A stretch of DNA of 64,000 nt, taken from NCBI RefSeq assembly GCF_014643835.1, contig NZ_BMKD01000001.1:1240001-1304000 (forward strand), read 5' to 3'. Both the position numbers and the translations under genes were made by a program. The DNA comes from Mucilaginibacter rubeus (GTDB taxonomy: Bacteria > Bacteroidota > Bacteroidia > Sphingobacteriales > Sphingobacteriaceae). The notes beneath the pieces were generated by a model. That model worked only from the letters and a program-made list of their open reading frames with translations. It was not told where the DNA came from and made no database searches. Of this stretch, positions 6,297 to 31,502 are shown piece by piece (within the stretch, counting starts at the first letter, position 1; each line of letters begins with the position of its first letter).

Positions 6297-6312
6297 ATGC
6301 GATATATCGCAT
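6297..6312. promoter_or_regulatory. Putative activator-binding palindrome (UAS), module A kinase operon
   Basis: Perfect 16-bp palindrome ATGCGATATATCGCAT, centred 64 bp upstream of the -24 GG at 6368-6369. The core GCGATATATCGC recurs at 15258-15269, and diverged forms occur at 23159 and 27312, all 63-66 bp from sigma-54-like boxes. Probably the binding site of one of the neighbouring enhancer-binding proteins. Confidence 0.65.
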
Positions 6313-6366
6313 CGTAGAAACACGACCATACAATACAATACACTTTATCTCAATCAATTACACCAA

Positions 6367-6382
6367 TGGCATCCTACTTGCA
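6367..6382 (+). promoter_or_regulatory. Sigma-54 promoter of the module A kinase/activator operon
   Basis: TGGCATCCTACTTGCA matches the sigma-54 consensus TGGCAC-N5-TTGCA with only one substitution in the conserved positions and exact GG-N10-GC spacing (GG 6368-6369, GC 6380-6381). It lies 62 nt upstream of the kinase ATG, leaving an approximately 50-nt leader. Confidence 0.75.
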
Positions 6383-6443
6383 TATTCCGGCCATTCTTAC
6401 CACTGAAGAAGCTGGTTAAAGAAGCATATGGATCCTGCTGAAC

Positions 6444-7346
6444 ATGAAAAATGATATAATTAAGTCGCTGCTAAATTGCACCGGCACCGGACATTTCGAT
6501 TCGCTTTTCGGGTCGGATATCCTGATGTCAGGTAAATACTTTTGGATAAGGAATTGGGTGCACTATACGCATGAAAACGTATGGATGGCTTCATTGTTAC
6601 CGGTCCTGATTGCGGCCGGACTTTGGGTCAGAAAGAAGCTTTGCGATAGAACGCTAGCGTTAAACGATGCTCATTTAATGCTAAGGCAAACAGAAAACAC
6701 GCTTGCAAAATGTAACGAGGAACGCGAATGGCTGATCGGCGAAATCAATCATAGGGTCAAAAACAATTTGCAGATCATCAGTAGCCTGCTCAACACCCAA
6801 TCAGCATATTTAATTGGCCAAAACGCGCGGGAAACCTTTAAAAACACTGAACGGCGGTTATATGCCATCTCACTGGCTTATCATAGTTTATACCAGCCCG
6901 ATCACCTTTCAAAAGTTAATCTCCGGCAATATGTGGAAAATCTGATCGGATATCTGAAAGACGAATTTGAGCTGGATGAACGGATCAATTTCAAATCCGG
7001 CATACAGGACATCAATCTGTTGGTAGAACCTATGGTTCCGCTCGGCCTGATCATTTATGAGGCCTTGAGTAACGCAATAAAGTTTGCGTTCCCTGGCAAT
7101 AAACCTGGTAATATAAAGATCGATGTAACCAGGTCAGAAGATGACAACCTTTTTTTGATGATTTCAGACGATGGTGTGGGACTTCCATCCTCCTTCAAAC
7201 CTGGTGAGGGCAACACCATGGGTACTGCTCTTATTATGGGACTAAGTCGTCAACTGGGCGGGGAATGTAAATTAACTGGTATGCATGGATTATCGCTAAC
7301 ACTCACTTTTACAGACGCAAGTAGCGAAAAACTGAACTTAATATGA
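6444..7346 (+). CDS. Membrane HisKA_2 sensor histidine kinase (module A)
   Basis: 300 residues. One membrane segment (about 46-62), a short coiled coil, then the HisKA_2 helix with INHRVKNNLQ (phospho-His103) and a HATPase_c domain with N-box YEALSNAIKFAF and G1 motif SDDGVGLP. There is no recognisable extracellular sensor domain; the first 45 residues are too short to be one. The stop overlaps the start of the REC-AAA+ activator by four bases (ATGA), so the two are translationally coupled and are very likely a cognate two-component pair. The paralogue at 23318 has the same layout. The operon is preceded by a sigma-54 promoter and so may be activated by its own product. Confidence 0.93.
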   Translation: MKNDIIKSLLNCTGTGHFDSLFGSDILMSGKYFWIRNWVHYTHENVWMASLLPVLIAAGLWVRKKLCDRTLALNDAHLMLRQTENTLAKCNEEREWLIGEINHRVKNNLQIISSLLNTQSAYLIGQNARETFKNTERRLYAISLAYHSLYQPDHLSKVNLRQYVENLIGYLKDEFELDERINFKSGIQDINLLVEPMVPLGLIIYEALSNAIKFAFPGNKPGNIKIDVTRSEDDNLFLMISDDGVGLPSSFKPGEGNTMGTALIMGLSRQLGGECKLTGMHGLSLTLTFTDASSEKLNLI

Positions 7347-9319
7347 ACGGTAATAAAGAAAATATCCTGATTGTAGAGGATGAATTTATAGTTGCGAATG
7401 ACCTGCGCTTAAAACTAACTAAAGCCGGGTATCAAATCTGTGGCGTAGCATCCTCGGTGGAAGAAGCAAAGCCCCTCATTGCGTCGTGCGACCCTACCTG
7501 GGTGTTATTGGATATTTATTTACAGGACGGCTCGCTGGGAACCGAACTAGCACCTTTGCTGGTGGAAAAAAACATCGGATTTATTTACATATCGGCGAAC
7601 ACAAACCAGAGCGTTCTCGAGTCTGCCAAGGCGACGCAGCCATATGGCTTTCTCGTAAAACCATTCAGAGAGAAGGATTTACTGATCATGTTGGACATCG
7701 CTCGTCAAAAGCACCAGAACAACACCGATCTTTCGTCACAGCGAGAGTTGATCTGGAAAAGGCAGCTGGAAAACTTAACCGAGTCTGTTAATGACGCCGA
7801 ACAAAAAGTAACCCGGTTGCCGGGATTAATCCAATCATTCATTTCCTTTGATTTCATGAGGATAAATTTTAAGATTCAGAACAATCCTGGCTTGCAAACT
7901 TATAATTTTGTCCGTACCTCTTTTGATGAGTATGATTTCCTGAATGACCAGGACCTAAATAAACAAATTGATTATAAGTCAAATAACAATTCAGCTCCAC
8001 GAATTTCATCCAGACAAACGAATTTTTATCTGAATGGTATCGATTATAAGCGGTCGCTATTGGATGAAGTCTGGGAAAAGCGCCTCAGTTCTTATTTCAA
8101 CCTGAACGCTAAGTTGAATTTCCGGATTGAAGTAGGCGGATCAAACTATGCGGAAATTTCATTTTACAGCAAGAGGGCGATTGCTTATTCTACGAATGAC
8201 CTGGGCTTACTGGAACGGGCTCAAATTTCTTTTTCCGGCTTATTCGAAGAGCTGATAAAAAAGACATTCACAGGTCAAAGTGTTCCTAAATCCAGGCAAC
8301 CAGAAGTGATTACAGATTGGGCAAGCACTACGCCGCAGCCCCAACCTCATAGATTTGATGGAATTATTGGTAAAAGTCCCGCGCTGCTCACCGTTTTAGA
8401 CAAAATAGATGTCGTTGCGCCTTCCGTAACCTCCGTATTGATTACCGGAGAAAGCGGTACAGGTAAAGAACGCGTCGCGCAATGTATCCACAAACTTTCA
8501 CCACGGCACAAAAAACAGATGGTTATTGTAAACTGCGCTGCGCTTCCGATAGATTTAGTCGAGAGCGAACTTTTCGGGCATGAAAAAGGCGCGTTTACCG
8601 GAGCTTTTGAAAAACGGGTGGGCAAATTCGAACAGGCCGACGGAGGCACCTTGTTTTTGGATGAGGTTGGGGAGCTGCCGTTATCGGCACAGGTTAAACT
8701 ATTACGCGTGCTGCAGGAAATGGAATTTGAACGCCTTGGAAGCAGTAAAACAATAAAGGTTGATGTCAGGATATTGGCGGCAACTAACAGGAACTTGGAG
8801 AGAGAGGTATCTGAAGGCCGTTTTCGATTGGACCTTTATTACCGTTTGAATGTTTTCCCTATCGAAACGCCGCCGTTGCGCGAGCGCATAGACGATATTC
8901 CGTTGCTTGCAGAAAGCTTTACGGAAAAATTTGCAAAAAAAATGAGGCGTTCCAGTTTAAAAATCAGCAACGAGGCGTTGGAAAGCTTGAAACTATATGA
9001 TTGGCCCGGGAATGTACGAGAATTGGAACACTTGATCGAACGAAGTGTCCTGGATGCACAAGATAATGAGATCCGGTCTGTCAGGATACCCAATATTCGT
9101 TTAAGCAAACCTGCAAGTGATCCCCCGGTGGTCAAAATACAAAAACTAAAAACATTGGACGAGAACGAAGCCGAGCATATTATCGAAGTACTGAAAGCCG
9201 TTCAGGGCAGAGTTGCCGGAGTTGGCGGTGCTGCGGAAATCCTCGGCGTTCCGCCGGGGACCTTATACTCGCGAATGAAAAGATTAGGCATAAGAAGAGA
9301 ATACGACGCCAATCAATGA
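7343..9319 (+). CDS. Sigma-54-dependent response regulator, REC-(GAF-like)-AAA+-HTH (module A)
   Basis: 658 residues. Receiver domain at 1-125 with phospho-acceptor Asp57 (VLLDIYLQD) and conserved Lys in FLVKPF; a middle segment of about 130-330 ending in a helix pattern typical of GAF domains (LGLLERAQISFSGLFEEL); the AAA+ domain with Walker A GESGTGKE at 369-376, the sigma-54-contacting GAFTGA loop at 416-421, Walker B FLDEVGE and the RLNVFPIETPPLRER segment; and a Fis-like C-terminal HTH ([23 protein letters not shown]). It is an NtrC-class activator that remodels sigma-54 RNA polymerase after phosphorylation by the overlapping upstream kinase. It is convergent with the poly-GAF gene, 32 bp between stops. 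Confidence 0.95.
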   Translation: MNGNKENILIVEDEFIVANDLRLKLTKAGYQICGVASSVEEAKPLIASCDPTWVLLDIYLQDGSLGTELAPLLVEKNIGFIYISANTNQSVLESAKATQPYGFLVKPFREKDLLIMLDIARQKHQNNTDLSSQRELIWKRQLENLTESVNDAEQKVTRLPGLIQSFISFDFMRINFKIQNNPGLQTYNFVRTSFDEYDFLNDQDLNKQIDYKSNNNSAPRISSRQTNFYLNGIDYKRSLLDEVWEKRLSSYFNLNAKLNFRIEVGGSNYAEISFYSKRAIAYSTNDLGLLERAQISFSGLFEELIKKTFTGQSVPKSRQPEVITDWASTTPQPQPHRFDGIIGKSPALLTVLDKIDVVAPSVTSVLITGESGTGKERVAQCIHKLSPRHKKQMVIVNCAALPIDLVESELFGHEKGAFTGAFEKRVGKFEQADGGTLFLDEVGELPLSAQVKLLRVLQEMEFERLGSSKTIKVDVRILAATNRNLEREVSEGRFRLDLYYRLNVFPIETPPLRERIDDIPLLAESFTEKFAKKMRRSSLKISNEALESLKLYDWPGNVRELEHLIERSVLDAQDNEIRSVRIPNIRLSKPASDPPVVKIQKLKTLDENEAEHIIEVLKAVQGRVAGVGGAAEILGVPPGTLYSRMKRLGIRREYDANQ

Positions 9320-9351
9320 AAGTCCCCAATGCCAGGAGGCCCGTCCTTTCT

Positions 9352-12300
9352 TTACCGCCGAAAGCTTTTTTTGATGCCGAGGCGCTTCATTTTAGAGTTT
9401 AACGTGCTTGATGGTACACCCAGTAATTCAGCGGCGCCTTTGGGGCCGCTGATTTTACCAAAACATTGTTTCAATGTTTTTAAGATCAAATCTCTTTCGT
9501 GGTCATCTATTGTTTGGGCTGCGCTATTTTCAATTAAATTAACAGGCAGGACTTCCTGCTTAGCGGTGGGCAGCGAAAAGCTCTTGATGGTGTTACTGGT
9601 TGCAAGCAGCACGCTCCTCTCTATTTGATGTTCCAATTCACGCACGTTTCCCGGCCAGTTGTAAGCCATTAACTCCTGCATAGCTTTTTGACTTATCATA
9701 TTGATGGGCTTACCGGTTTTCTTCGCAAAACGGGCTGCGAAATGGCCTGCAAGTAAAGCGAGATCCGCTTTCCGTTCCCTTAAAGATGGCAAATAGATAG
9801 GAAAAGTGCTGAGCCGGAAATAGAGATCGCTTCTGAAACGCCCTTCGGCTACTTCAGTTTCGAGGTTACGATTTGTGGCTGTAATAATTCGGACATCGAT
9901 TTTTATCGTAGCCTTTCCCCCGATCCGTTCAATTTCCCGTTCCTGCAGAGCCCGTAAGAACTTCACTTGCAGCTCAAGCGGAAGTTCCCCTATTTCATCT
10001 AAAAATAATGTGCCACCGTTAGCAAGCTCAAATTTGCCTATTCTCTTTTCGGTTGCACCGGTAAAACTTCCCCGCTCGTGACCAAACAGTTCACTTTCTA
10101 TCAGGCTTGCGGGCAATGCAGCACAGTTCACCTTTATCATTAATTTATTTTCCCTGGACGAGTGATTATGTATCGCCCTGGCAACCAACTCTTTTCCGGT
10201 ACCGGTTTCTCCCTGGATCAATACTGTGCTGTCCGAGGCGGCAACTTGCGAAACCTGTCGAAATACCTGTTTAATTTCATCGCTTTCTCCAATTATTTCA
10301 GAATAATTGTGGGAGGTTTCCAGCTCCTGCCTGAGATAAACCTTTTCCTCTTCCAGTCTTTCCTTGTAGCTGTTGATCTCAGCCAGCTGTTTGGTAATTT
10401 TATCCGTTGCTATCAAATCGGAAACTGCGATGGCAAGCTGCGAACACAGCCCTTTAAATAAAGGCTGATCCGCATAGTTCGCATCGTACTCTTTAACGAA
10501 CAACACGCCTACCATTTCCTTTCCTTTGTACAAAGGCACACCGATGATGTCTGAAATTCCCTCACTGTAAAAAAGCTTTGCATAGGACGGCGCTTCGGGG
10601 TGTGCCATAATTTCAGCCACTTGAAACCTCGCCGCAACCCCGCCGGAGATCAGGTTCCCCAGGATGATATCATTGGCCGGATATAGTGCAGATATTAACT
10701 TTTCAAAATCCGGTTTAGCAGCATGTTCGCTTTTATCCTTCCAAAAATAACAGAAATGCGAACTCTTATCTTCGGAGAACCAATGAAGACATATATCTTC
10801 AATCAGGCAAAGGTTTTTAAGGTAATGGTTGAATATCTTCCGTAGCTCAAACCGATCTTTGACATCAGCTATAGCACCGGCAAACTCAAGCATGGTTGAT
10901 TTCTCGTGTTCCCGTTTGTTAATTTGTTCATTAAAAGAGATATTGAAAATCGGCACTGTCAGCACATTCGCAATCTCTTCAACCGATTCGAGGTAAGCCG
11001 GTGTGCCATCAGGAGCGGATCCATACCAAAGCACCCAAAAACCTAATACCTCTCCGTTGATGATCAATTTAGTAAACATAACATGAGACATTCCGCTTTC
11101 AAAGCTCACCTGCATATAAAGAGGCATTTTGTTGTTTTTGGAAAAAGCGACAATATCGATGATAAGCGGTTTGTCTGACCTTAGCGCGAGGTCTGCCACT
11201 CCATCATAGACTGGTGTTAAGCCTATAATATCCTTATAACGGGCGTGACCACTGGATTTCGATTCAGCAGGAAGCACCCACGGGAGAGCGAAAGTTTTTT
11301 CCCTGTTATCAAAAAGCACAATCGACCCGTGAGAAAAATTCAGTTCTCTTTTTAATTCTGAGGCGAGTACTTTAAGCAGGTCAACAGGGTTACGTGCCGA
11401 TGAAACTTTTGTACTCAATGAGAGTAGCAGTCCTTTCCGCTTTTCATTATAAGCCAGTTTATTATTGGCCTGAATATTAGCAACGGCAATTGAAAGCTGA
11501 TCGCTAATGCCTTTGAGCATCCTGAAAAGCCCAGGCTCTATATTTTTTTCTTCGGGAAACGAAACAACCCAAAAAGCAAGAATCTTATTATCCTGCACGA
11601 AATTAGTAATTACTGTCTTATGAGGTCCGATGCCTCGATGTACTGTCGGGAAAGCATCAAATTCTGAGGTACCGTCAATAATACAGGGGGAGTCCGCATT
11701 ATCGAGGAGTCGTTTTATCTCGGCTGTCATAACTATTTTGAGCGGCTCATGGAGTTGAAGATGTTTACCGGGATTCTCGTTAGGCAACAGTATGCTTATG
11801 GACTGGCCGTCTTCGTCCGTGACCCCGACAAAAAAGTTATCGAAATTGAAAGCGTTCTTTAGTTTTGTCGACATGAGCCTGATGAGCTCACAATAATTCC
11901 TTAAACCAGCGGAATCATTGCTAAATGTAATAAGCAATTCGTTTTCCTTTTGTCTTTCAGCAATCTCCATATTAGCCCTTATATTGTAAACTGCTGTTGA
12001 CAATTGGTTGGCGATCGCCTGTAGCAGCCCGAACTGGCTGGTCTTAATCGTATTCCGGGACGCAAAACAAAGTACCCAATATCCAAAAACCGTAACTCCG
12101 TCATAAAGTCTCGCAATTAAAATTTCCTCAATGCCACTTTCGAAATTTACCGTTAAGAACTTTGGTAAATCCTGAAATTCAAAACGGCTCGTTCTGGTAA
12201 TGGAAACAGGCAAAGATGAAGAGTCGATAAAATCGATAAATTCTGTGTATCGACTGATATCCAACCGTTGTACCTTAGCGTATTCCTGATGTCCGCGGGA

Positions 12301-14220
12301 CTTTGAGTTAGGGTCATTAAGAAATGAAACTATAAAACCGTCAGGGCATTTCATACTCAAAGAAATATGTTCGAACTTCAAAACCGGCCTTATACGCTCG
12401 TTAATAATCCTGATCAACTGATCTTTTTCCCTTGTTGCGGCTATATCTTCGCTAACTGCCAGCAAAAGTTCTTTTTCACGTTCACGGCTCGCTATCTCTT
12501 CGTTATGTAAAATATTGGAAACCGTCTTCGCGATTTGATAGGAAACTTCTTTGAGAAGATGAAGTTGCGGTTCATGAAGGTGAATGCCTTCCATCAGATA
12601 TAAACTCAGCGTACCGATCTGCCTGTTATCGTTCCGTAAAGCAATAGAAACAACACCTCTCGTGCCCCCATCATACTCCGATTTTAAAAATGGCGATCCT
12701 CCCGTCCTTTCAATTATCCTTTCCAGGCTCGCTACATTAGGGTCCGCAGTTTCGCAAAGCCTTGAGAAAATCTGGCCGCCTTTAAACCAATCATCAACTT
12801 CAGGCGATACACAATCCACACGATTTCCCAGGCCTAACCCGGCAAGATATATAAAAGGTGTGTCTTCATACCCATCAGCATGAACGAAAACGGACATGCT
12901 GTTGAAAATAAAAAATTTGCGAAGATAAGGCTCTATAATCCCAATAAACTCCGCCTTGCTTTTAACGGAGGTCAATTCGAAACTTAAGTCCATGAGCTTG
13001 TTTCTTTCGGTCTCCCTGTATCGCAGGGATTCGCTAATCCGGATATTATCTACGGCAACAGATATTGGTGCCGCAATCGTTTTGGCCAACTCTATGTACC
13101 TCGGACGAACCGGTTGTTCGCCGGTAAAGGCAATACACCATATTCCCATAACTCTAAAATCAACCCTGAGCGCCAGCATTAACACTTTTTTTACTCCAGA
13201 TTCATAATTGATTCGCAGATATAAGGGCAATTGCTTTCGTTCGTTCAACTTTTCGAGATCTAAAATTACTGGTTCCGTGGACAACAGAGCTTTGTTAAAT
13301 ATACCATCGGCAATGTTAACCTCCGTTTTCATGGTGGTTTCAAATAACGGGTGATTTTGTGAACGGGAATGCGCGTCAATAAGCAATACACTCGCCGTCA
13401 TTTGATCATCATTGATCTTGTATATAAAGTGATGGGAAAATTGAAAGAGGTTTAAAAGTTTCGATCTTATAATTTTAAACAGATCATCTTCGTCCCGGGC
13501 AGAGGCGAGCTCCACATTAAGCGACTGCAATACATCATTCTCTTTTTTTGCTTCACTTAACTGACTGGAAGTATTAATACAATAAACTGCAGAGGCCAGT
13601 TGAATAATTATTTGTTCCAAAATACAATTTGGCAAATCGTTTATATCGGCATCATGGTTTAATACTAGCACCCAAAAACCGACAAATTCAGCTCCGCGAA
13701 ACAGATTAACAATTGTAGCTTTTTGAAAGCCCTGTTTTTGGCAAGCGGCGAAAAACGGGTGAAGTCTTTCGATATCAGCATAAATAGTCAAATCGAGTTC
13801 AAAAAAGCCTGCGGATTTCTCCGATCTGCGTAGATGCTCATATAAATAGCCGAAGCTGTCGGCCCCTATCGCTGAAGCAGAATCCGCATATTGATTGGCG
13901 TCACTATCGCGTTCGTTATCATAATAAAACAGGTATTCTATGGGGGCCAATCCCTTATTGTTATAAATAACAGCTGAACTGAATGCGTTTACCAATCGGT
14001 TGACCTTATGCTTTAAAATATCATTCAAAAGCAGAGGCTCCTCGGTCGCTGTCAATAATTTGCCCAGCTGGCAAACTTCTTCCATACAATCAATAAGTTT
14101 CTGCTTATTATCTCCAAGTACCGCTGCAAGTTGACCTGTGTTTGCGCCTGATTGTCCGACTATTGCCCGGATATCATCTTCAGAACTTTCAATACTCGAT
14201 TGATGAGGAAAAATTATCAT
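9352..14220 (-). CDS. Seven-GAF sigma-54-dependent transcriptional activator
   Basis: 1622 residues, far longer than ordinary GAF-type activators such as FhlA. By repeat inspection there are seven consecutive GAF-like units of about 170-180 residues (roughly 45-205, 215-385, 395-565, 570-745, 750-925, 925-1100, 1105-1275), each opening with a pattern such as [18 protein letters not shown] and closing with a helix such as [13 protein letters not shown] short coiled coil ([20 protein letters not shown]) leads to an AAA+ domain with Walker [15 protein letters not shown] in place of GAFTGA, Walker B FLDEIGE, and a C-terminal HTH ([23 protein letters not shown]-type). No receiver domain: ligand binding to the GAFs should control it. 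The AraC gene 66 bp upstream is probably cotranscribed. Confidence 0.92.
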
Positions 14221-14286
14221 ACTACTGATTATTAATTTTATAGGGTATTGGATTTATCGCATACGCTCTTAACCTGGACCGTAGTG

Positions 14287-15150
14287 TCAGGCCGCCATTG
14301 CTCTTTTATAATCGGTAAAACTCTCGCCGGTTATTCGCTTAAAAAACTTACTGAAATGAGATACATCTAAGAAACCGAGCTTATAAGCCACCTCCTTCAT
14401 ATTTAATTCATTGTAACTTATCAAACGTTTGGCTTCTACCAGGATACGCTGTTGAATAAAGTAACTGGTGGTGTTTCCAAGCGTATCCTTTATCATGTTA
14501 TTGAGGTATGCCGGGGTGACAGCCATCATCCTGGCATAGTCGGCAGGCATTTTCAGTGTGGTAAAATATTTATCAAGCAGGGAAAAGAAATGCTGGGTTT
14601 GAAGAAGGCATTTACCCGGTGTCGCTGGACTCAGCTGCGATGTCGCACGATTTAAAAAGGACGCTACTACCTGGAACAAGCCCTGCACTATTTCACAGTT
14701 ACTCCCGTCGTAGCTTTTAGATTCATAAATAAGACGCTCCAGAATATCTTTAAGAAACCGATGCTCACTTTTCTGGAGCGGCAACTGGTCTATTTCTCTT
14801 AAATTCAAAAAAACGGATCTCAGGAGTGCGGAGGACCCGGTTGACAATTGCAGGAAATCATGAGAAAAAGATAGTAAATAACCATCTGCATCACGTCCCT
14901 TTTGTAAGGAAAAGCCCACCGTAGGTCTTACCAAACCTATATTTAATGTATCAACAGTACGATCTTTTCGATCCAATATATAATCGCAGTCACCCTGCGT
15001 CACGAAAATTATCCTGTAATAACCTGTTTGATTCGCTGCAACCTGCACCGCATTAAGGTTTCCATCAGACAGCCGTCGTATATCAAATAGACGACGATAA
15101 TTGAAGATAGCAGGTTTTAGATCGGTTGATTTGGAAATTGTAATGGCCAT
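14287..15150 (-). CDS. AraC-family transcriptional regulator (module A)
   Basis: 287 residues. The C-terminal ~100 residues form the double helix-turn-helix of the AraC/XylS family, with the second helix unit reading EVAYKLGFLDVSHFSKFFKRITGESFTDYKR. The N-terminal ~180 residues resemble a cupin-like sensor (YRIIFVTQGDCDYILDRKD) and are shared with the paralogue at 26358. It is the first gene of a probable two-gene minus-strand operon with the seven-GAF activator. A GG-N10-GC element at 15185-15198 and the dyad at 15258-15269 precede it, suggesting that it is itself sigma-54 controlled, which is unusual for an AraC gene. Ligand and targets unknown. Confidence 0.95.
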   Translation of the reverse strand: MAITISKSTDLKPAIFNYRRLFDIRRLSDGNLNAVQVAANQTGYYRIIFVTQGDCDYILDRKDRTVDTLNIGLVRPTVGFSLQKGRDADGYLLSFSHDFLQLSTGSSALLRSVFLNLREIDQLPLQKSEHRFLKDILERLIYESKSYDGSNCEIVQGLFQVVASFLNRATSQLSPATPGKCLLQTQHFFSLLDKYFTTLKMPADYARMMAVTPAYLNNMIKDTLGNTTSYFIQQRILVEAKRLISYNELNMKEVAYKLGFLDVSHFSKFFKRITGESFTDYKRAMAA

Positions 15151-15184
15151 AGGACTTTATTAATAGAAACTCGACGCCAATTAC

Positions 15185-15199
15185 GCCAATCTTATACCA
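15185..15199 (-). promoter_or_regulatory. Candidate sigma-54 promoter of the AraC/seven-GAF operon
   Basis: Minus strand TGGTATAAGATTGGC has exact GG-N10-GC spacing but weaker flanks than the 6367 site (TGGTAT and TGGC rather than TGGCAC and TTGC). It lies about 35 bp upstream of the AraC ATG, and its -24 GG is 66 bp from the GCGATATATCGC dyad, which is the main reason for calling it. Confidence 0.45.
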
Positions 15200-15255
15200 T
15201 ACATTACAAATGGCTGACCATAAGTAAATTAGATCAAAATATTGATTTTTAAAAT

Positions 15256-15271
15256 TTGCGATATATCGCTA
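15256..15271. promoter_or_regulatory. Putative activator-binding palindrome (UAS), AraC operon
   Basis: The central 12 bases GCGATATATCGC (15258-15269) are a perfect palindrome identical to the core of the site at 6297-6312. It is centred 66 bp upstream of the candidate -24 element on the minus strand. Confidence 0.6.
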
Positions 15272-15675: not shown

Positions 15676-17955
15676 TTGCAGATTTTGACAAGGATCCGGA
15701 AAATCAATTTTGTTGGCATATTGCTTAATTTCGTATTGTTATTGAACGGTTCAACAGCAATCGCGCAGGATTCTGCAATTTCGCAAACAGACAGCATAAC
15801 TATAGCCAAGTGGTTAAAAACCGCAGAACTCTACTTGAATAAACCGGGAGAACTTGACCCGGACCTTCGGTTTGCTGAAAAAAATACCAGACAAGCCCTC
15901 GTATTCAGCGAAAAACTCATATATAAAAAGGGCATCGGACAATCTTTTTTTACGTTATCAAAGGTTTACAGAGAACGGAAAGATCAAAAAAAAGCAAAAG
16001 ATTACCTAGGTCGTTCGATTGAAATATTTACTTCAGATGCTTCCTTCAGATTGGCGGAGGCTGATGCCGATATTGAGCTGGCAAGCTACTATGGAATTAA
16101 TGACGCCGGCGATTTAGAAAAAAAAATAGCCCTGTACAGGCATGCAATAGATATACTAAGCGAAAAACTTCCAAATTCGATCAAACTCGCAGATCAGCTG
16201 AAGTACCTTGGAGACCTTTACAATGTGAAGGAAGACAATATCCTGGCGATAGAAAAACTGAAGCAAGCCCTGATAATTTACAAGGCAAATAATTTCTATA
16301 AACTTCAGGACATTTATTGCCTGCTTGGCGCAGTGCTGAATAGAACGGGAGCGTCCCGTGACGGTTTAAAATACCTGCTTCTGGCAGAAAAATGCGCATT
16401 AAAATCCGGTGACAGCACATCAACTGTTGCAACCTTATACAACCGGATGGGGATCATTTACAATTCCTTGAATCAACGAGCTGAAGCCAGTAAAGTATTT
16501 GAAAAAGCAATGCGTTACGCAAGGCGAAATCATGACAATGACGCAGTGATGATCATCAGTGCTAATCTTGGCTGGAGCTATATTCGTATTAACGAAGCCA
16601 ATAAGGCAATAGTTACACTTAAAGAAGCTCTTCGGATTATCACACCACAGGATACAGGGCATTATATCAATTTAAACACAACACTCATGGAGGCGTATCT
16701 GCAAAAACGTGACGTGGATAATGCCCTGAAATATAATGACGCTATTAAAAGTCTGATAAAACAGTTTTATCTCTACGATTTCCTGCTGATGAATTATCAT
16801 CGCGCGGCAGCTCGTTTATTTTTGATGAAAAAAGATTTCAAAGAATGCAAAGTGCAACTTGGTGCTATGCAAACAATTACGCAAAAAACCAAAAATATTC
16901 ATGACATGGCCGGGGTTGAGGAGATCTATTACCGCTTAGACTCAGCAAGCAACCGGCCCTGGGAAGCCTTAACGCACTTCGATCGCTATAAACAACTCAG
17001 TGATTCATTAAACCGTCGCAATCACGACCGCGAATTAACACAGCTTCAAATCCAATACAAGACTGAAAAAAAAGACATGGACATCGCGTCGCTGAAACAA
17101 AAAGCAGCCTTGCAGGAAAGAACACTTAACAGTGAGAAGCTTGTCCGGAACCTTTCTATTGCGGGAATGCTGCTATTCATCATGTTAACATTCGTGCTGT
17201 TAGGCAGCTATCGTCTCAAACAAAAAACAAACAGGGAATTACAGAGCAAACAAAATGCAATCAATGGTCAAAATCTTTCACTTAAACACTTATTAAAGGA
17301 ACGGGAATGGTTGATAAAGGAAGTCCATCACAGAGTGAAAAACAATCTGCAAATTGTAATCAGCCTTCTCGATTCGCAATCATCTTTTCTGGTCGATGAG
17401 AATGCACTTGAAGTACTTCGCGAAAGCCGTCACCGGATGCACAGCATTTCACTCGTGCACCAGAAACTGTACCAGGATGAAAACCTTACCGGTATCAATA
17501 TAAAAGAATACATTTCAGAACTTATCGGTTTTTTGAGGGACAGTTTCGGTACCGGCAAAAATATAAGCTTTGAGTACGATGTCGAAGAGCTTCTATTCGA
17601 CGTATCTCAAATCGTGCCGCTGGGGTTGATATTAAATGAGGCCATCACCAACTCGATTAAATATGCTTTTAAAAACCGAACCAACTGTCTGATAACAGTC
17701 CGGGTAAAGGAAATTACTGAAAATGATGTTGAAATTTGTATTGCGGATAACGGCTGCGGGTTACCTCCGGATTTCGACTTTAATAATTGCAGCACGCTCG
17801 GGATGAATATCATCAGCGGGCTTACCAGGCAGCTTCAGGGGGAATTATCTATATTTTCAGCAAACGGCACAAATATCTGCATTAAACTACAACGGCTTAA
17901 AACATTGGGGGGCATCAAAGATATCCGGCATGAGAAACTGAACAGAGAAGCTTAA
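15676..17955 (+). CDS. TPR-containing HisKA_2 sensor histidine kinase
   Basis: 759 residues. A signal peptide (hydrophobic core about 12-24, ending in AIAQ) leads to a helical periplasmic region of TPR-like repeats (about 100-450, for example units around YNRMGIIYNSLNQRAEASKVFEKA), a membrane segment near 490-512, a coiled coil, the HisKA_2 motif EVHHRVKNNLQ (phospho-His552) and HATPase_c (NEAITNSIKYAF, ADNGCGLPP). The start is TTG: an in-frame TAA lies nine bases upstream and no ATG precedes the signal peptide. No response regulator follows directly; the partner may be one of the receiver proteins in the island. The layout matches the genes at 2 and 40786. Confidence 0.92.
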   Translation: MQILTRIRKINFVGILLNFVLLLNGSTAIAQDSAISQTDSITIAKWLKTAELYLNKPGELDPDLRFAEKNTRQALVFSEKLIYKKGIGQSFFTLSKVYRERKDQKKAKDYLGRSIEIFTSDASFRLAEADADIELASYYGINDAGDLEKKIALYRHAIDILSEKLPNSIKLADQLKYLGDLYNVKEDNILAIEKLKQALIIYKANNFYKLQDIYCLLGAVLNRTGASRDGLKYLLLAEKCALKSGDSTSTVATLYNRMGIIYNSLNQRAEASKVFEKAMRYARRNHDNDAVMIISANLGWSYIRINEANKAIVTLKEALRIITPQDTGHYINLNTTLMEAYLQKRDVDNALKYNDAIKSLIKQFYLYDFLLMNYHRAAARLFLMKKDFKECKVQLGAMQTITQKTKNIHDMAGVEEIYYRLDSASNRPWEALTHFDRYKQLSDSLNRRNHDRELTQLQIQYKTEKKDMDIASLKQKAALQERTLNSEKLVRNLSIAGMLLFIMLTFVLLGSYRLKQKTNRELQSKQNAINGQNLSLKHLLKEREWLIKEVHHRVKNNLQIVISLLDSQSSFLVDENALEVLRESRHRMHSISLVHQKLYQDENLTGINIKEYISELIGFLRDSFGTGKNISFEYDVEELLFDVSQIVPLGLILNEAITNSIKYAFKNRTNCLITVRVKEITENDVEICIADNGCGLPPDFDFNNCSTLGMNIISGLTRQLQGELSIFSANGTNICIKLQRLKTLGGIKDIRHEKLNREA

Positions 17956-18117
17956 CAGAGAGCCCCCACATCAAACCGGTTTCTAATTTCCAAAATTCAA
18001 GCGATCCGTACATCAAATCCAGGGTTCCTTACTTTTTAGCTATATCACCAGCGGTGTATTTTTGAACTGCGGAGCGGACGCATTGTCTTCAGATCCGTCG
18101 GCTTATAATTAAAAATT

Positions 18118-18609: not shown

Positions 18610-18725
18610 CAATTCCTCACATTCCATACTATAAATCACACGATTCATACATCAAAGCAAGGGAGCGTAATTTTAATTTTGTAAAGAATTTAATTGAGCA
18701 TAGTCACGTAGGCACTGATAATATC

Positions 18726-18748
18726 GCGGGATTTTTTAACCCGCTTTA
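18726..18748 (+). terminator. Short hairpin, possible terminator after the DUF302 gene
   Basis: GCGGG (18726-18730) pairs with CCCGC (18740-18744) across a T-rich loop and is followed by TTTAG. The stem is only 5 bp, so this is a weak call. Confidence 0.35.
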
Positions 18749-18787
18749 GTATCCGGCTGCTAATATGTTTACGAATCCCGTATTACG

Positions 18788-19906: not shown

Positions 19907-19949
19907 AAAGCATAATAGTAAGGATTACATTACTTCTAAGTTTAGATAA

Positions 19950-21353: not shown

Positions 21354-21367
21354 ATAAAAACAGCAAC

Positions 21368-23029
21368 ATGGAAAAACCAATTATTATTTCTATCGATGAT
21401 GACCCTCAAGTATCCAGGGCTATCGCCGGGGACCTCAAAGCTAAGTTTGGCAAATCTTATCGTATCGTCAGTTCAGTATCGGCAAAAGAAGTCCTTGAAA
21501 GCCTGCCTGATCTGCGTAACAGCGGTGTCCCTGTCGCTCTGTTCCTAAGCGACCAGCGCATGCCCGAAATGAATGGGGTCACTTTCCTCGCAGAAGCTAT
21601 GAAAGTATTTCCCGAAGCAAAAAAAGTACTGCTGACGGCATATTCTGACACTGAGGCGGCAATCAAGGCAATTAATGACATAAGGTTGGATTATTACCTT
21701 CTCAAACCCTGGGACCCTCCAGAGGAACGCCTTTATCCGGTACTTACCGACCTGCTTGAGGATTGGCAACGGGAGTACATCCCCGAGTTTAAAGGAATAA
21801 AGGTTATTGGTTTCCAATACTCGTCACTTACGCACACCGTTAAAGATTATCTCGCAAGCAACCTTATACCTTACCAATGGCTCGAGGTAGACGAATCCGG
21901 AAGCAACAGGGATATCCTTGAAATTAATGGTATTGCTGAAGGCGACCTGCCTGCAATTATATATGAAGATGGTACTTTTGAGGTTTCACCATCGATCAGA
22001 TCTATCGCAGCTAAGATCGGCCGGGATCCTGGTTTGGTTCATCAGATATATGATGTTGTCATTGTTGGGTCAGGGCCGGCTGGGCTTGCGGCTGCAGTTT
22101 ATGGGGCTTCTGAAGGACTTAAAACGCTGGTGATTGAACGCAAAGCCCCTGGTGGACAAGCGGGCACCAGCTCCAGAATTGAAAACTACCTTGGCTTTCC
22201 TGCCGGCTTAAGCGGCGCAGACCTAACCCGGCGCGCTGTCAGTCAGGCTAAACGTCTTGGTGCTGAATTCATTTCACCTTGTACGGTTACCGATATCCGG
22301 CAAAAAGATGGTTATAAAATTGTGATATTGGAAGATGGACGGGAAGTGGTGACCAGGACACTTATCGTAGCAACGGGAGTTGATTACCGCAGACTCGACG
22401 TACCGGAAATTGACAGACTTACCGGGGCGGGCATATATTACGGTGCTTCAACAACCGAAGCCGGGGCTTGTCGCGGCAGAGATGTGTTTATATTGGGAGG
22501 CGGGAACTCGGCGGGCCAATCAGCTGTGTATCTTTCAAATTTCGCAAAAGATGTTTACATACTGATCAGGAGGGACAGTCTATCCTACACGATGTCGGCA
22601 TACCTTATCGACCAACTCAATGCTATTTCAAATGTGCATCTGATAACAGATTCTGAGGTCATTGCAGTTGCCGGCGGGGACCGCCTGGAAACATTAACAT
22701 ATTTCAATTCACGTACAGGAAATTATACGACAAGCGAGGCAAGTGCACTTTATATTTTTATTGGTGCAAAACCCTATACAGACTGGATCAAACTTGATGT
22801 GTTGCGGAATGACAAAGGTTATATATTGACAGGCCGGGAGCTTGCAAGAAGCATTGATCTGCCTAAAATATGGAAACAAACAAGGGAACCATTTTTGCTT
22901 GAAACCAGTTGCAGCGGAATTTTCGCTGCGGGAGACGTACGTGCCGGAGCAATGGCAAGGGTCGCGTCGGCCGTTGGAGATGGCTCTATGGCAATCAGTT
23001 TCATTCATAAGTATCTTGCAGATCAATAA
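21368..23029 (+). CDS. Response regulator fused to thioredoxin-reductase-like flavoprotein
   Basis: 553 residues. Receiver domain at 1-125 with Asp62 (FLSDQRMPEM) and Lys in YLLKPWD; a glutaredoxin/thioredoxin-like segment at about 145-220 (KVIGFQYSSLTHTVKDYL, then LPAIIYEDGTFEVSP) with no CxxC; then a TrxB-type FAD/NAD(P) domain with GSGPAG at 234-239, GGQAGTSSRIENYLGFP, NADPH motif GGGNSAG at 377-383 and C-terminal GIFAAGDVRAG. Where TrxB has CATC this protein has ASTT (360-363); a lone Cys follows at 368. It probably uses FAD and NAD(P)H but cannot do the standard dithiol chemistry. Last gene of the three-gene run. Phosphorylation would couple two-component signalling to a flavin redox output. 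Confidence 0.93.
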   Translation: MEKPIIISIDDDPQVSRAIAGDLKAKFGKSYRIVSSVSAKEVLESLPDLRNSGVPVALFLSDQRMPEMNGVTFLAEAMKVFPEAKKVLLTAYSDTEAAIKAINDIRLDYYLLKPWDPPEERLYPVLTDLLEDWQREYIPEFKGIKVIGFQYSSLTHTVKDYLASNLIPYQWLEVDESGSNRDILEINGIAEGDLPAIIYEDGTFEVSPSIRSIAAKIGRDPGLVHQIYDVVIVGSGPAGLAAAVYGASEGLKTLVIERKAPGGQAGTSSRIENYLGFPAGLSGADLTRRAVSQAKRLGAEFISPCTVTDIRQKDGYKIVILEDGREVVTRTLIVATGVDYRRLDVPEIDRLTGAGIYYGASTTEAGACRGRDVFILGGGNSAGQSAVYLSNFAKDVYILIRRDSLSYTMSAYLIDQLNAISNVHLITDSEVIAVAGGDRLETLTYFNSRTGNYTTSEASALYIFIGAKPYTDWIKLDVLRNDKGYILTGRELARSIDLPKIWKQTREPFLLETSCSGIFAAGDVRAGAMARVASAVGDGSMAISFIHKYLADQ

Positions 23030-23105
23030 AAAACATGTTGATTTTATCTTCGCGTGGATTTCGGCCGGTTATATGAATTGATCAGTGATATTTAATTTTC
23101 AAAAA

Positions 23106-23120
23106 ACTGATATTATCAGT
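23106..23120. repeat. 15-bp dyad upstream of the module B kinase
   Basis: ACTGATATTATCAGT is a perfect 7+1+7 inverted repeat about 116 bp upstream of the sigma-54-like -24 box. It could be another activator site, or a hairpin: on the minus strand it is followed by TTTTTT. Confidence 0.4.
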
Positions 23121-23158
23121 GACAAAAAAATACTTTTTCGCTGTTAATAATCGTAGCG

Positions 23159-23174
23159 ATGCGAAATATCGTCT
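23159..23174. promoter_or_regulatory. Putative activator-binding dyad (UAS), module B kinase operon
   Basis: ATGCGAAATATCGTCT is a diverged copy (12 of 16 identical) of the palindrome at 6297-6312. Its centre lies 63 bp upstream of the -24 GG at 23229-23230, the same geometry as in module A. Confidence 0.55.
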
Positions 23175-23227
23175 TTTAAAATATTTAGTTTTCAGATAAT
23201 TAACTGTAAACTAATCTATTATTAAAG

Positions 23228-23243
23228 TGGCATCAGAGTTGTT
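23228..23243 (+). promoter_or_regulatory. Sigma-54-type promoter of the module B kinase/activator operon
   Basis: TGGCATCAGAGTTGTT fits TGGCAC-N5-TTGCW, with GT in place of the -12 GC. It shares TGGCATC with the module A promoter and lies 74 nt upstream of the kinase ATG. Confidence 0.55.
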
Positions 23244-23317
23244 GATTTTCGGGAGATAATAGTTAACCATATCATTTCAAAGGCTATTCTATCGTCGAAA
23301 TCAACTTAATATAAAAA

Positions 23318-24169
23318 ATGATGCTGACCAACTGGTGGGAGGTAAACCGCCTCTCATATCGTGTTTATAGTTCGATCATAGTAGCCATGCCTGACATATT
23401 CAATTTTCCGGTTAAAAACGGGTATTTGACCTTCGGAATAATTGGAATTATACTAATTTTATTGTGGCAGACCGTAAAGTGGAAAATGTCATTTAAAAAA
23501 AACAGGGAGATGCTTGAAAAGGTCAATAGAGAAAACGAAGTATTGATCAATGAATTGAATCACCGTGTCAAAAACAATTTGCAGATAGCGATCAGTTTAC
23601 TGGAGGGGCAGGCTGCGTATACAGGACAGCCTGAAATAGCCGAGGCCATAAAGGAAGGATGTAACAGACTCTATGTTATGTCACTCGCATTTCATTCCAT
23701 ATATGACGGCGAGTTGCTTTCAACAATCAACCTGCGGGAATACCTTGGTAAACTGGTTAATTATCTAAGAGAAGAATTTGGAAACGATAACAATGTCAAA
23801 CTTGAAAGCGAGCTTGATCCCTGCCTGGTGGACCTGGCGCAGGCCATACCTATGGGGCTTATTTTAAGTGAAGCAGTGAGTAATGCCTATAAGTTTGCTT
23901 TTCCTGACAAAAAAAACGGATGTATCTCAATAACGCTTAAAAACCTGCAAGGTTCAATCGTACTGACGATCAGCGACAACGGTGTTGGCCTCCCCGCACC
24001 GGCAGTGAATGCAGAAAGTCAGGCATTCGGGTTCAGTCTGATAGAAGGACTTGGTAGGCAATTGTCAGCAATTGTTAATATCGAAAATTTAAATGGTTTG
24101 ACCGTTTCCCTGGAGATCGCGCAGTCCGGACAAACTTTATCTAATACCAGTATTGCGAACAATACCTAG
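23318..24169 (+). CDS. Membrane HisKA_2 sensor histidine kinase (module B)
   Basis: 283 residues. One membrane segment (about 36-52), coiled coil, HisKA_2 motif LNHRVKNNLQI with phospho-His82, and HATPase_c with N-box SEAVSNAYKFAF and G1 SDNGVGLP. It parallels the kinase at 6444 in size and layout, and like it lacks a recognisable sensor domain; the short N-terminal stretch faces outward at most. Its stop is immediately followed by the activator ATG with no gap, so the pair is translationally coupled. An alternative start is Met24, which would still leave the membrane segment. Controlled by the sigma-54-like promoter upstream. Confidence 0.93.
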   Translation: MMLTNWWEVNRLSYRVYSSIIVAMPDIFNFPVKNGYLTFGIIGIILILLWQTVKWKMSFKKNREMLEKVNRENEVLINELNHRVKNNLQIAISLLEGQAAYTGQPEIAEAIKEGCNRLYVMSLAFHSIYDGELLSTINLREYLGKLVNYLREEFGNDNNVKLESELDPCLVDLAQAIPMGLILSEAVSNAYKFAFPDKKNGCISITLKNLQGSIVLTISDNGVGLPAPAVNAESQAFGFSLIEGLGRQLSAIVNIENLNGLTVSLEIAQSGQTLSNTSIANNT

Positions 24170-26125
24170 ATGAAAGAAAATATACTCATAGTAGAAGACG
24201 AATTTATTGTTGCGAATGATCTTAAGATCAAACTCACCAAAGCGGGTTATCAAGTTTGCGGAATTGCTGCGTCTGTGAAAGAGGCAGAGCAACTGATCGA
24301 TAAGCACAAGCCGGGTTGGGTGCTGCTCGACATTTTTTTGCTTAACGATTCAAAAGGAACGGATCTTGCGCCAATTTTGATATCCAAAAATATCGGATTT
24401 ATTTATATCTCCGCTAATACCAATCAATCGGTATTGGAAGCGGCGAAAGCTACTCAGCCATACGGATTTCTTGTAAAACCTTTTAGGGAAAAAGACCTGC
24501 TGATCATGCTGGAGATAGCACTTCAGAAGCATCAGTTAAACCTCCAGATGCAGCAGCAGAGGGAACAGATATTCCGTATGCAGCTGGAAGGGCTTGCGCA
24601 TATTTCCGGATCAATGACCGAGAAGATCAGCAAGCTCCCGGCCATGACGCAAAGTTTTGTACCATTCGACCTGTTAAGAATTATTCTTCCCGTGAGAAAG
24701 GAGATTGATCACATTGGCTTTGCACGGACCGGTTATGAAGAATACCAAACCTACGTAAAGAATGAGCTGGCAGCCATATGTGGCACCGGCAATAATGATT
24801 GGAACAGCAATAAATCAATTTTACTTGAACTCGAAAGTGGAACTATCAGCAATTCCATTAACTATCGTAAGCTATTATTGGACGATATATGCGAGAAACG
24901 CTTAAGTACACAGTTTCGGCTCGCGTCGCGGATTGCTGTAAAGTTCCGGCTGAAAAATGGAGACCCTTTTACCCTGGCATTCTACAGCAAAAATGAAGAT
25001 TTATATACGGAAGCACATTTAGGACTGCTTCGGCGTTCATCTGTGGCATTGGAATCCATGATGGAACAGCTTCTTAACGAGCGTCCGGTTTCTGCTGTAG
25101 AAAGACGGGATGCCGCGTTAAGGAAAACTTCGGGCAGTAAACCAGGCGCAGAGGAATCAAAATTTGACGGAATTTTGGGTAAGAGCAGATCGCTGCTGGC
25201 CGTACTTGACCAGATTGATATGGTCGCAACCTCCCCTACTTCTGTGCTCATTACAGGCGAAAGCGGGACGGGCAAGGAGCGCGTAGCTCAGTGTATTCAC
25301 AAACTATCCCCGCGTGCTAAAAATCCGCTGGTTATAGTCAACTGTGCGGCCTTACCGGCCAATCTTATAGAATCTGAACTTTTTGGGCACGAAAAAGGCG
25401 CTTTCACAGGAGCTGTAGATCGCCGTGTGGGTAAGTTCGAGCAAGCAAATGGCGGAACGATCTTCCTGGACGAAATTGGAGAACTGCCACTGGATGCACA
25501 AGTGAAATTACTGCGGGTTCTCCAGGAAATGGAGTTTGAACGTGTCGGAAGTAACAAATCAATTAAAGTAGATGTCAGGGTTATCGCTGCTACCAATCGT
25601 ACTCTTGAAAAGGAAGTCGCTGAAAACCGCTTCAGGCTCGACCTGTATTACCGTTTAAATGTATTTCCGATTTTTATACCGCCACTGCGCGAGCGAAAGG
25701 AGGACATCGGTATCTTAGCTAAAGGTTTCGTGGAAAAATTCGCTCTCAAAACGGGCAGGCCGGTAACCGGGATCAGTGCCGCGGCTATTACCCAATTAAA
25801 AAATTACAACTGGCCGGGCAACATACGTGAACTGGAACATTTTATTGAAAGACAGGTGTTAATAAAAACCGAAGGCGTAATTGAGCAGATTTCGCTGCCG
25901 CAAAGCCAGCCCCTGGCTTCGGCGGAAAATGATACGGCTAATAATAAAACATCCCTGAAGACAATGGAAGAGATGGAAGCAGATTATATCGTCCATGTGC
26001 TGAAAAGTTGCCAGGGACGTATCGGCGGGCCGGGCGGAGCAGCAGAGATATTGGGGATGCCGCCGAGTACCCTACATTCAAGAATAAAGAAATTGGGTAT
26101 CAAAAGAGAATTCAGTGCAGACTGA
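24170..26125 (+). CDS. Sigma-54-dependent response regulator, REC-(GAF-like)-AAA+-HTH (module B)
   Basis: 651 residues. Receiver at 1-122 with Asp54 (VLLDIFLLND) and FLVKPF; a GAF-like middle domain (about 130-320, ending LGLLRRSSVALESMMEQL); AAA+ domain with Walker A GESGTGKE at 363-370, GAFTGA at 410-415, Walker B FLDEIGE and RLDLYYRLNVFPIFIPP; C-terminal HTH with [23 protein letters not shown]. It is a close paralogue of the 7343 product throughout, including the middle domain, and should activate sigma-54 promoters when phosphorylated by the adjoining kinase. It retains every AAA+ motif, so no loss of function is evident. Confidence 0.95.
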   Translation: MKENILIVEDEFIVANDLKIKLTKAGYQVCGIAASVKEAEQLIDKHKPGWVLLDIFLLNDSKGTDLAPILISKNIGFIYISANTNQSVLEAAKATQPYGFLVKPFREKDLLIMLEIALQKHQLNLQMQQQREQIFRMQLEGLAHISGSMTEKISKLPAMTQSFVPFDLLRIILPVRKEIDHIGFARTGYEEYQTYVKNELAAICGTGNNDWNSNKSILLELESGTISNSINYRKLLLDDICEKRLSTQFRLASRIAVKFRLKNGDPFTLAFYSKNEDLYTEAHLGLLRRSSVALESMMEQLLNERPVSAVERRDAALRKTSGSKPGAEESKFDGILGKSRSLLAVLDQIDMVATSPTSVLITGESGTGKERVAQCIHKLSPRAKNPLVIVNCAALPANLIESELFGHEKGAFTGAVDRRVGKFEQANGGTIFLDEIGELPLDAQVKLLRVLQEMEFERVGSNKSIKVDVRVIAATNRTLEKEVAENRFRLDLYYRLNVFPIFIPPLRERKEDIGILAKGFVEKFALKTGRPVTGISAAAITQLKNYNWPGNIRELEHFIERQVLIKTEGVIEQISLPQSQPLASAENDTANNKTSLKTMEEMEADYIVHVLKSCQGRIGGPGGAAEILGMPPSTLHSRIKKLGIKREFSAD

Positions 26126-26149
26126 TCAATAATTTTATTTTGTACTGCA

Positions 26150-26187
26150 TGCCCATCCTGCGATTTATATCGTAAAAAGGATGGGCA
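26150..26187. terminator. Bidirectional terminator-like hairpin between convergent genes
   Basis: TGCCCATCCT (26150-26159) pairs perfectly with AGGATGGGCA (26178-26187). It lies between the stops of the module B activator and AraC genes. The loop holds GCGATTTATATCGT, close to the UAS core. The T-tract is weak (GCATATTTTC). Confidence 0.6.
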
Positions 26188-26357
26188 GCATATTTTCAGG
26201 ACTTTGCTCAAAAAATCAATTACTTAGGCGAGTATTTGAAATCCATCACCAGTTTACAAAGCTCGTCAACACAACTTCTGAGGTTCTTTTAGAGCATAAT
26301 TACGGGCTACCCGATAATATGGTAATAACTGATGCCGAGCCGAACCATATATGCTAA

Positions 26358-27215
26358 TCAGGCGGCTATCGCTCTTCGAAAATCAGTAAAAGGCATTCCG
26401 GTATTTCTCTTGAAGAATTTACTAAAATGAGACACATCAAAGAAGCCTAGTTTATACGCAACCTCTTTCATCGTAATTTCATGTGAGCTCATCAATTTCT
26501 TTGCCTCAGTAAGCACGCGTTGTTGGATATAATAGCTTGTGTTTAGACCAAAGTTTTCCTTAATGATGAAATTAAGATAAGATGGGCTTACCGCCAGTAG
26601 ATTTGCATAATCTGCAGGCATTTTAAGCGTCGCGAAGTGTTCATCCAAAAGTGCAAAAAAACGATTCGCATGATAAAGGCACCTGTTTTGTATTGACGGC
26701 TGCCTTTCAGCAGTAATCCTGTTCAGGTACAATGCGAAGATCTGGAACAGGCCTCTTAAAATCGCATCTTTTAAACCGTTGGTTGTTTGAAATTCGCTGC
26801 GCAACCTGCATACAATATCTTGAAGAAAACCACGGTCCTCATCAGGTATTGCAATTTGTCCCGCGGTACTGTTTAAATGAAATTCCTGCGCCATGCCCGC
26901 AGAATTAAGCGCGGCCTGCATAAATTCAAAAGTGAAAGAAAGTACGTAACCACAGCCCGATTGAGATAGGGCAAGCGTATAAGCCTGCTTCGGTTTAATG
27001 ATGGCAACGGAAGACGGATCAAGTATCAGTACCTGATCAGAAGTTTGACACTCGCAGCTGCCTTTCTCCATAAAAACGACAGTATAACAGTAATTATCCT
27101 GTAACAAACGTCCTTCATGCCCGTGCCGTTGCAGGGAAGCTACGCTAAAAAACGAAGATCCGCATTCATGGTTAAGCATAAATTTCTTATCAGTAGGAGT
27201 TGATGTTGTGCTCAT
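26358..27215 (-). CDS. AraC-family transcriptional regulator (module B)
   Basis: 285 residues from the ATG at 27215; an upstream in-frame ATG at 27266 would add 17 residues that do not align with the paralogue and would run into the sigma-54-like promoter. The C-terminal double HTH (EVAYKLGFFDVSHFSKFFKRNTGMPFTDFRR) is nearly identical in pattern to that of the 14287 product, and the N-terminal half shows a cupin-like sensor (YTVVFMEKGSCECQTSD). Here it lies downstream of the five-GAF activator, 336 bp away, whereas in module A it lies upstream of the seven-GAF gene. It has its own candidate sigma-54 promoter and UAS. Ligand unknown. Confidence 0.93.
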   Translation of the reverse strand: MSTTSTPTDKKFMLNHECGSSFFSVASLQRHGHEGRLLQDNYCYTVVFMEKGSCECQTSDQVLILDPSSVAIIKPKQAYTLALSQSGCGYVLSFTFEFMQAALNSAGMAQEFHLNSTAGQIAIPDEDRGFLQDIVCRLRSEFQTTNGLKDAILRGLFQIFALYLNRITAERQPSIQNRCLYHANRFFALLDEHFATLKMPADYANLLAVSPSYLNFIIKENFGLNTSYYIQQRVLTEAKKLMSSHEITMKEVAYKLGFFDVSHFSKFFKRNTGMPFTDFRRAIAA

Positions 27216-27241
27216 AAATTTGATATTGATGCAAATCATTA

Positions 27242-27257
27242 GGCATACGACATGCCA
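27242..27257 (-). promoter_or_regulatory. Sigma-54-type promoter of the module B AraC gene
   Basis: Minus strand TGGCATGTCGTATGCC has GG-N10-GC spacing with the TGGCAT -24 half shared by the promoters at 6367 and 23228; the -12 half is ATGC instead of TTGC. It ends 26 bp from the ATG at 27215. Confidence 0.55.
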
Positions 27258-27311
27258 CCAGCACAACTAATTGTATATCTGTCAGTTAAATAGAAAATTC
27301 AACAAAATAAA

Positions 27312-27327
27312 TTCTCGATATATAGAA
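27312..27327. promoter_or_regulatory. Putative activator-binding dyad (UAS), module B AraC gene
   Basis: TTCTCGATATATAGAA is palindromic at 12 of 16 positions and keeps CGATATAT from the core motif. Its centre is 64 bp upstream of the -24 GG of the AraC promoter. Confidence 0.5.
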
Positions 27328-31486: not shown

Positions 31487-31502
31487 GTCACTACAGATGT
31501 CG

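Follow-up and report, generated by a model that had tools for sequence, protein, structure and literature searches.

Predicted sigma-54-type promoters with upstream dyads at near-constant spacing in a signalling island of Mucilaginibacter

The 64-kb window, the whole stretch of Mucilaginibacter rubeus DNA analysed here, contains a signalling island comprising two kinase-activator cassettes (6444-9319 and 23318-26125), two large GAF-AAA+ activators and two AraC-type genes. Each cassette lies on the plus strand, with a HisKA_2 kinase gene ahead of one for a REC-AAA+-HTH activator. In the first, a histidine kinase of 300 residues (6444..7346; assigned by Pfam) precedes RR1 (7343..9319), with the recognition helix GTLYSRMKRL; in the second, a histidine kinase of 283 residues (23318..24169) precedes RR2 (24170..26125), with the helix STLHSRIKKL. 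RR1 and RR2 both show the features of NtrC-family response-regulator activators, namely REC, Sigma54_activat and HTH_8 domains and a GAFTGA motif. The large activators big1 (9352..14220, 1622 aa) and big2 (27552..31364, 1270 aa), both on the minus strand, show those of GAF-type EBPs: GAF sensors, Sigma54_activat, a GAFTGA-type loop in its GSFTGA variant and a Fis-type HTH. Pfam HTH_8 is found in big2 and not in big1, with a recognition helix that can be aligned in both; the helices of RR1, RR2, big1 and big2 are four different ones. Among the best 25 NCBIfam rows for each of the four activators, none reached a curated cut-off.

AraC-type regulator 1 (14287..15150, minus strand) and big1 apparently form a single operon. 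We place the start of AraC-type regulator 2 (26358..27215, minus strand) at ATG 27215 and rejected an alternative TTG at 27266, because the open reading frame beginning there overlaps the P3 box described below. A TPR-HisKA_2 kinase of 759 residues (15676..17955, plus strand) also lies in the island; pair scoring across the 64-kb window found no dyad/box pair for it. Between 19950 and 23029, a gene for a cNMP-binding HATPase protein precedes one in which a response-regulator receiver is joined to a thioredoxin-reductase-like FAD protein. A catalase and this thioredoxin-reductase-like neighbour give a faint hint that the stimulus of the island may be redox stress.

Four transcription units of the island are preceded by a dyad and a sigma-54 box, the latter scored with hand-set weights. 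P1 combines a 16-bp perfect palindrome, ATGCGATATATCGCAT (6297..6312), with the box TGGCATCCTACTTGCA (6367..6382, plus strand), which under these weights is the top sigma-54 match in the whole window and predicts a transcription start near 6394. P2 comprises the dyad ATGCGAAATATCGTCT (23159..23174) and the box TGGCATCAGAGTTGTT (23228..23243, plus strand). P3 comprises the dyad TTTCTATATATCGAGA, read on the minus strand and belonging to a pyrimidine-flank class (27312..27327), and the box TGGCATGTCGTATGCC (27242..27257, minus strand). P4 has the dyad GCGATATATCGC (15258..15269) in the 16-base context TAGCGATATATCGCAA, with a sigma-54-like box, TGGTATAAGATTGGCG (15184..15199, minus strand), whose -12 element is weak. 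All four pairs that the original prediction had placed on both strands were located, and its fixed distances of 64, 63, 64 and 66 bp agree with the 64, 63, 64-65 and 66 bp that we measured from dyad centre to the middle of the GG in P1 to P4, respectively.

The GG-N10-GC element stands in a TGGCA-N6-TTGC context that is strong in P1, fair in P2 (GT at -12) and P3, and weak at the -12 of P4. Only two exact copies of GCGATATATCGC occur in the window, which holds 23 perfect 12-mer palindromes; these copies lie in P1 (6299-6310, within the 6297-6312 palindrome) and P4 (15258-15269). The claim of two perfect palindromes with one core holds to this extent, the other dyads departing from GCGATATATCGC by two mismatches in P2 (23161-23172) and three in P3 (27315-27326). 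When all pairs with a gap of 50-64 bp in the 64 kb were ranked, P1, P2 and P3 took the first three places and P4, because its box is weak at -12, only the eighth, among chance pairs; the case for P4 as a putative promoter rests on its conservation. Sigma-54-like boxes scoring at least 14 are common across the window. The Bacteroidota -7 box is TAnnTTTG; exact copies are absent from all four promoter regions, and relaxed -7-like octamers are present in those of P2, P3 and P4.

Two further elements were noted in this region. A fifth box upstream of big2 (TGGCAATCACATTGCC, 31463-31478) was rejected by eye as a likelier terminator, because it lies within an inverted repeat followed by T, 3' of a hydrolase gene, and gives a score on either strand; the inverted repeat at 31440-31490 after that gene mimics a sigma-54 box on either strand. 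A second perfect palindrome, CGAAATTTCG (27367-27376), precedes the P3 -24 element by about 115 bp and showed no conservation in the P3-region alignment with M. psychrotolerans.

A related locus occurs in M. psychrotolerans (NZ_SOZE01000009.1), with 69% identity to RR1, and P1 to P4 are all found there at syntenic, orthologous sites: P1 at L001 8963/9030 (dyad 8963-8972), P2 at L059 6298/6365, P3 at L059 10461/10394 and P4 at L001 18372/18303. In the order P1 to P4, the dyads are identical at 13/16, 14/16, 16/16 and 16/16 positions and the boxes at 10/16, 13/16, 11/16 and 10/16, with 45, 61, 49 and 44% identity in the remaining ungapped columns of the same alignments. The P3 dyad, degenerate relative to the P1 motif, is evidently kept in its own form, since all 16 of its bases are retained. 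This relative also possesses rpoN and one HU/IHF-family gene above the cut-off.

The M. psychrotolerans genome was scanned with the 11-mer GCGAWATATCG, which yielded 18 distinct sites (20 rows, two palindromes being counted twice; 8 rows for the reversed control). Scattering of dyads through coding DNA without boxes, named in the original prediction as evidence against it, was seen for 14 of the 18, which lie inside mechanically called ORFs of at least 100 aa and have no box of at least 14 at N52-61 (best 13.9), N being the number of bases from the 10-mer dyad core to the T of TGG. The scattering does not extend to the four non-coding dyads, all on contig C109 between 116 and 179 kb (a span of 62 kb): three have a box at N55-59, and the fourth has an AGGCAT -24 element at N55 without the -12 G. 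Neither the P2 nor the P3 ortholog fits this 11-mer. At L225 (1501-1512), a perfect GCGATATATCGC precedes a small ORF and what by eye is an antiporter-like gene; it is accompanied by a -24-like GGCAT and lacks the -12 G.

The arrangement recurs among relatives. We assembled 63 activator operons, comprising 60 full-length RR1 relatives (mostly the best-scoring), W1, W2 and the M. psychrotolerans P1 operon; in 49 of them the unit includes an extra upstream gene, mostly of kinase size, and in 14 the activator stands alone. With minimum scores of 9/10 for the dyad and 14 for the box, and N54-60, we found a composite in 17 of the 63, against a mean of 0.155 and a maximum of 2 in 200 dinucleotide shuffles; the other 46 had none at these cut-offs. 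Counted in 7-bp windows of N, the operons peak at 16 for N56-62, the next windows being N49-55 and N70-76 with 7 each. In a second set, 7 of 32 loci had a non-coding composite with a dyad of at least 9/10 anywhere in 6.5 kb; two of these loci (L169 and L180) overlap the first set, one L169 composite being that of L063. A second CGA-type dyad adjoins the first, farther upstream, at L068, L073, L076, L086 and L091.

With the gap left free between 43 and 73 bp, the dyad plus sigma-54 box matched in 19 of 399 family genomes, compared with none when the pattern was read backwards and one when the -12 was shifted by one base, an unplanned control. Three of the 19 matches fall within long open frames (N43, 46 and 46); of the 16 non-coding ones, 15 have N56-57 and one (L134) has N50 and precedes a cysteinyl-tRNA synthetase-like gene. 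Each of the 15 either precedes a sigma-54 activator gene or is no more than about 6 kb away from one. Ten directly precede GAF-activator genes, cases that are related to each other and so do not represent ten independent events; one precedes a kinase-activator operon, and the remaining four lie about 2.5 kb (L148), 6 kb (L151), 0.2 kb (L197) and 2.4 kb (L198) from an activator gene. The possibility that ten family matches (L124-L133) mark a conserved coding gene was rejected, as they have no long open frame and GAF-activator genes downstream. A looser search of the genus found 27 places, spread over 25 of 149 genomes, versus 4 for the reversed pattern, many of the 27 being coding-like by eye.

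The region between dyad and box was compared across 46 promoters chosen at N52-61 (53 before similar spacers were removed); 30 of the 46 have N56-57, a peak that is not independent evidence on spacing because of that selection. The IHF consensus is WATCARNNNNTTR, and it occurs in 7 of the 46 promoters on one strand and in 7 on the other, where a Markov null for one strand only gave a mean of 0.33 and a maximum of 4 in 1000 runs. Six of the seven forward matches begin 18-19 bases before the box, and all seven promoters with reverse matches have one spanning about -31 to -19. Among 39 strong promoters, the 99% null maximum is surpassed in columns -9 (T), -8 (T), -15/-14 (A) and -29 (A). In the window, P4 is the only spacer with the exact consensus, and there it lies off the usual place.

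The bases flanking the CGA of the dyad vary with the recognition helix of the activator. We paired 34 promoters with their own or presumed activators, in a set that includes close relatives and some dyads of 8/10. The base adjoining CGA is C or T in 11/11 half-sites (6 promoters) paired with TLTSR activators, and A or G in 39/39 (28 promoters) paired with activators whose helices are N-K, H-R, H-K or Y-R. The pairings P3-big2 and P4-big1 were assumed from position, and without P3 the pyrimidine count is 10/10; this side of the rule draws on six promoters from about three lineages, P3 among them. Ten GAF activators fetched later have N-K helices and purine flanks, one flank per site having been fixed by the search pattern, so that the free test amounts to only 10 half-sites. 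One site, L179, runs against the rule, with a C flank beside an I-S-K helix. The TLTSR activators L144 and L152 had no matching dyad within two mismatches in the 15 kb fetched, and no new TLTSR site was obtained.

By this rule the odd P3 dyad fits big2 (1270 aa) and those of P1, P2 and P4 fit the other activators, and big2 is the predicted reader of P3. Rather than sharing one enhancer motif, as had been proposed, the dyads likely fall into at least two specificity classes, judging from the pyrimidine and purine counts above. In M. psychrotolerans, a big2 relative with an identical helix is encoded on a different contig, consistent with a reading of P3 in trans in that organism. This relative (L201, contig C26) has one in-frame TGA within the match and may, for that reason, be interrupted.

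Composites also precede genes outside the cassettes, named here by eye from their translations: a 188-aa outer-membrane-like gene (L001), a TolC-like efflux gene (L014), a FAD-dependent NADH-dehydrogenase-like gene (L009), a LytTR-like gene (L026) and an HD-domain membrane gene (L020). These targets, together with the big2 relative on a separate contig, speak against the self-contained regulon originally envisaged. The HD-domain membrane protein behind the L020/L199 composite resembles Pycsar-type effectors by eye. No activator gene was detected by motif in the 19.5 kb fetched around that composite (about 9.7 kb on either side), nor in the like stretch around the site at L200.

Several explanations can be set against these data. 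One activator might bind all four dyads and make the island a single-input regulon, an option that the original prediction left room for. In its favour, P1-P4 have a CGA-N4-TCG-like core and near-constant spacing in common, and P1 and P4 the same 12-mer. We consider this unlikely, given four activators with four different recognition helices and a P3 dyad whose half-sites are pyrimidine-flanked, unchanged at every base in M. psychrotolerans and matched to the TLTSR class. That the dyads are sites of another factor, such as an AraC-type protein or a repressor, and lie near sigma-54 boxes by accident seems far less probable still. Two of the four promoters do drive AraC-type genes, but 61 of 65 fetched composite loci contain no ORF related to the AraC proteins of the window at E 1e-5 (L001, L087, L151 and L197 are the exceptions, and several of the 65 span only 3 kb or overlap). 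Composites, moreover, precede kinase-activator operons and GAF-activator genes, and their flanking bases track the activator helix.

Mere coincidence of palindromes with GG-N10-GC matches we find scarcely credible. Boxes of at least 14 are indeed common in the window, and most 11-mer dyads of M. psychrotolerans (14/18) lie in ORFs; yet four orthologous sites are conserved, and the shifted -12 (1/399), reversed (0/399) and shuffled (0.155) controls all argue against chance. The original prediction had likewise judged chance unlikely, a view upheld by the conservation of the four sites, the 17/63 operons relative to the shuffles and the leading ranks of P1-P3.

Our preferred reading, to which we assign a probability of roughly 0.8, is that the P1-P4 dyads are UAS of sigma-54 promoters, read by local AAA+ activators that feed back on their own genes. 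It draws on features legible in the DNA and its translations: the composite itself, its spacing, conservation and family recurrence, and the association of helix class with flanking base. A Fis-type HTH dimer of a local AAA+ activator would bind the CGA-N4-TCG dyad, whose centre lies about 64 bp, some six turns of the helix, 5' of the -24 GG. The AT-rich spacer would probably be bent at some sites by an IHF/HU-like protein, and the AAA+ hexamer would then remodel the sigma-54 closed complex via GAFTGA/GSFTGA. The kinase-activator pairs of RR1 and RR2 would feed back on their own operons through P1 and P2, big1 would most likely act on the AraC-big1 operon through P4, and big2 would act on the AraC2 gene through P3; it is binding, activation, bending, a positive sign and the exact activator-site pairs that we infer. 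The identification of the dyads as activator sites beside sigma-54-type promoters, made in the original prediction, gains support from the near-constant spacing and from the composites beside activator genes, and its proposal that kinase, activator and AraC genes are under the circuit's own control is likewise supported at the level of sequence.

We speculate, with slightly less than even confidence, that the Sphingobacteriaceae possess a standard fixed-phase cassette, consisting of CGA-N4-TCG, a 56-57-bp spacer with an IHF-like bend and -24/-12 elements, that is common to many paralogous activators and takes its specificity largely from helix residues and CGA-adjacent bases. If so, the targets of an activator would be readable from its sequence. 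The island offers a concrete promoter layout and a candidate recognition rule for this Bacteroidota family, and the rule could link many kinase-activator pairs with their targets. The near-constant spacing raises the question of what keeps these enhancers in place when textbook ones may shift position.

ZraSR (HydHG) and NtrBC-type systems are autoregulated two-component sigma-54 systems. The island resembles them in coupling a kinase to a REC-AAA+-HTH activator, with an activator site upstream of its own operon's sigma-54 promoter; P1 and P2 show this ZraSR-like, putatively autoregulatory arrangement of activator-type site and sigma-54 promoter before their own operons. It differs from them in its HisKA_2 kinases, its longer activators, the presence of four activators together and promoters with one dyad at a near-constant 64 bp. 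As in the EBP regulons reconstructed for Desulfovibrio vulgaris (PMC4641369) and Clostridiales (PMC6615313), UAS motifs lie upstream of sigma-54 promoters. In the former, promoters no more than 100 nt from the site form the largest class, distances above 300 bp are seen in four cases and some sites are found downstream, unlike the clustering at 56-57 bp from dyad to box seen here; some EBP genes adjoin their targets, and one EBP is proposed to be autoregulated. In the latter, the UAS of fifteen groups consist of TGT and ACA with a 10-12-bp spacer, unlike the CGA-N4-TCG dyad. A review places UAS about 100-150 bp upstream, with looping often IHF-assisted (PMC7057263). The promoters described here are like such IHF-assisted promoters in having an IHF-like consensus between UAS and -24, but the whole arrangement fits within about 64 bp and exact IHF matches occur in a minority, and a role for IHF is putative. 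A 2025 comparison (PMC12316311) describes sigma-54 control outside Pseudomonadota as less explored and treats Bacteroidota through promoter matrices; its main text contains neither 'UAS' nor 'Mucilaginibacter'. Among the literature matches listed, in a search covering few subscription papers, none concerned sigma-54 activator sites in Mucilaginibacter, Pedobacter or Bacteroidetes. Overall, a single closed regulon is not supported, a sigma-54 enhancer arrangement of a known kind is well supported by the sequence comparisons, and autoregulation through it is likely; what appears to stand out is an unusually constant spacing together with a candidate specificity rule.
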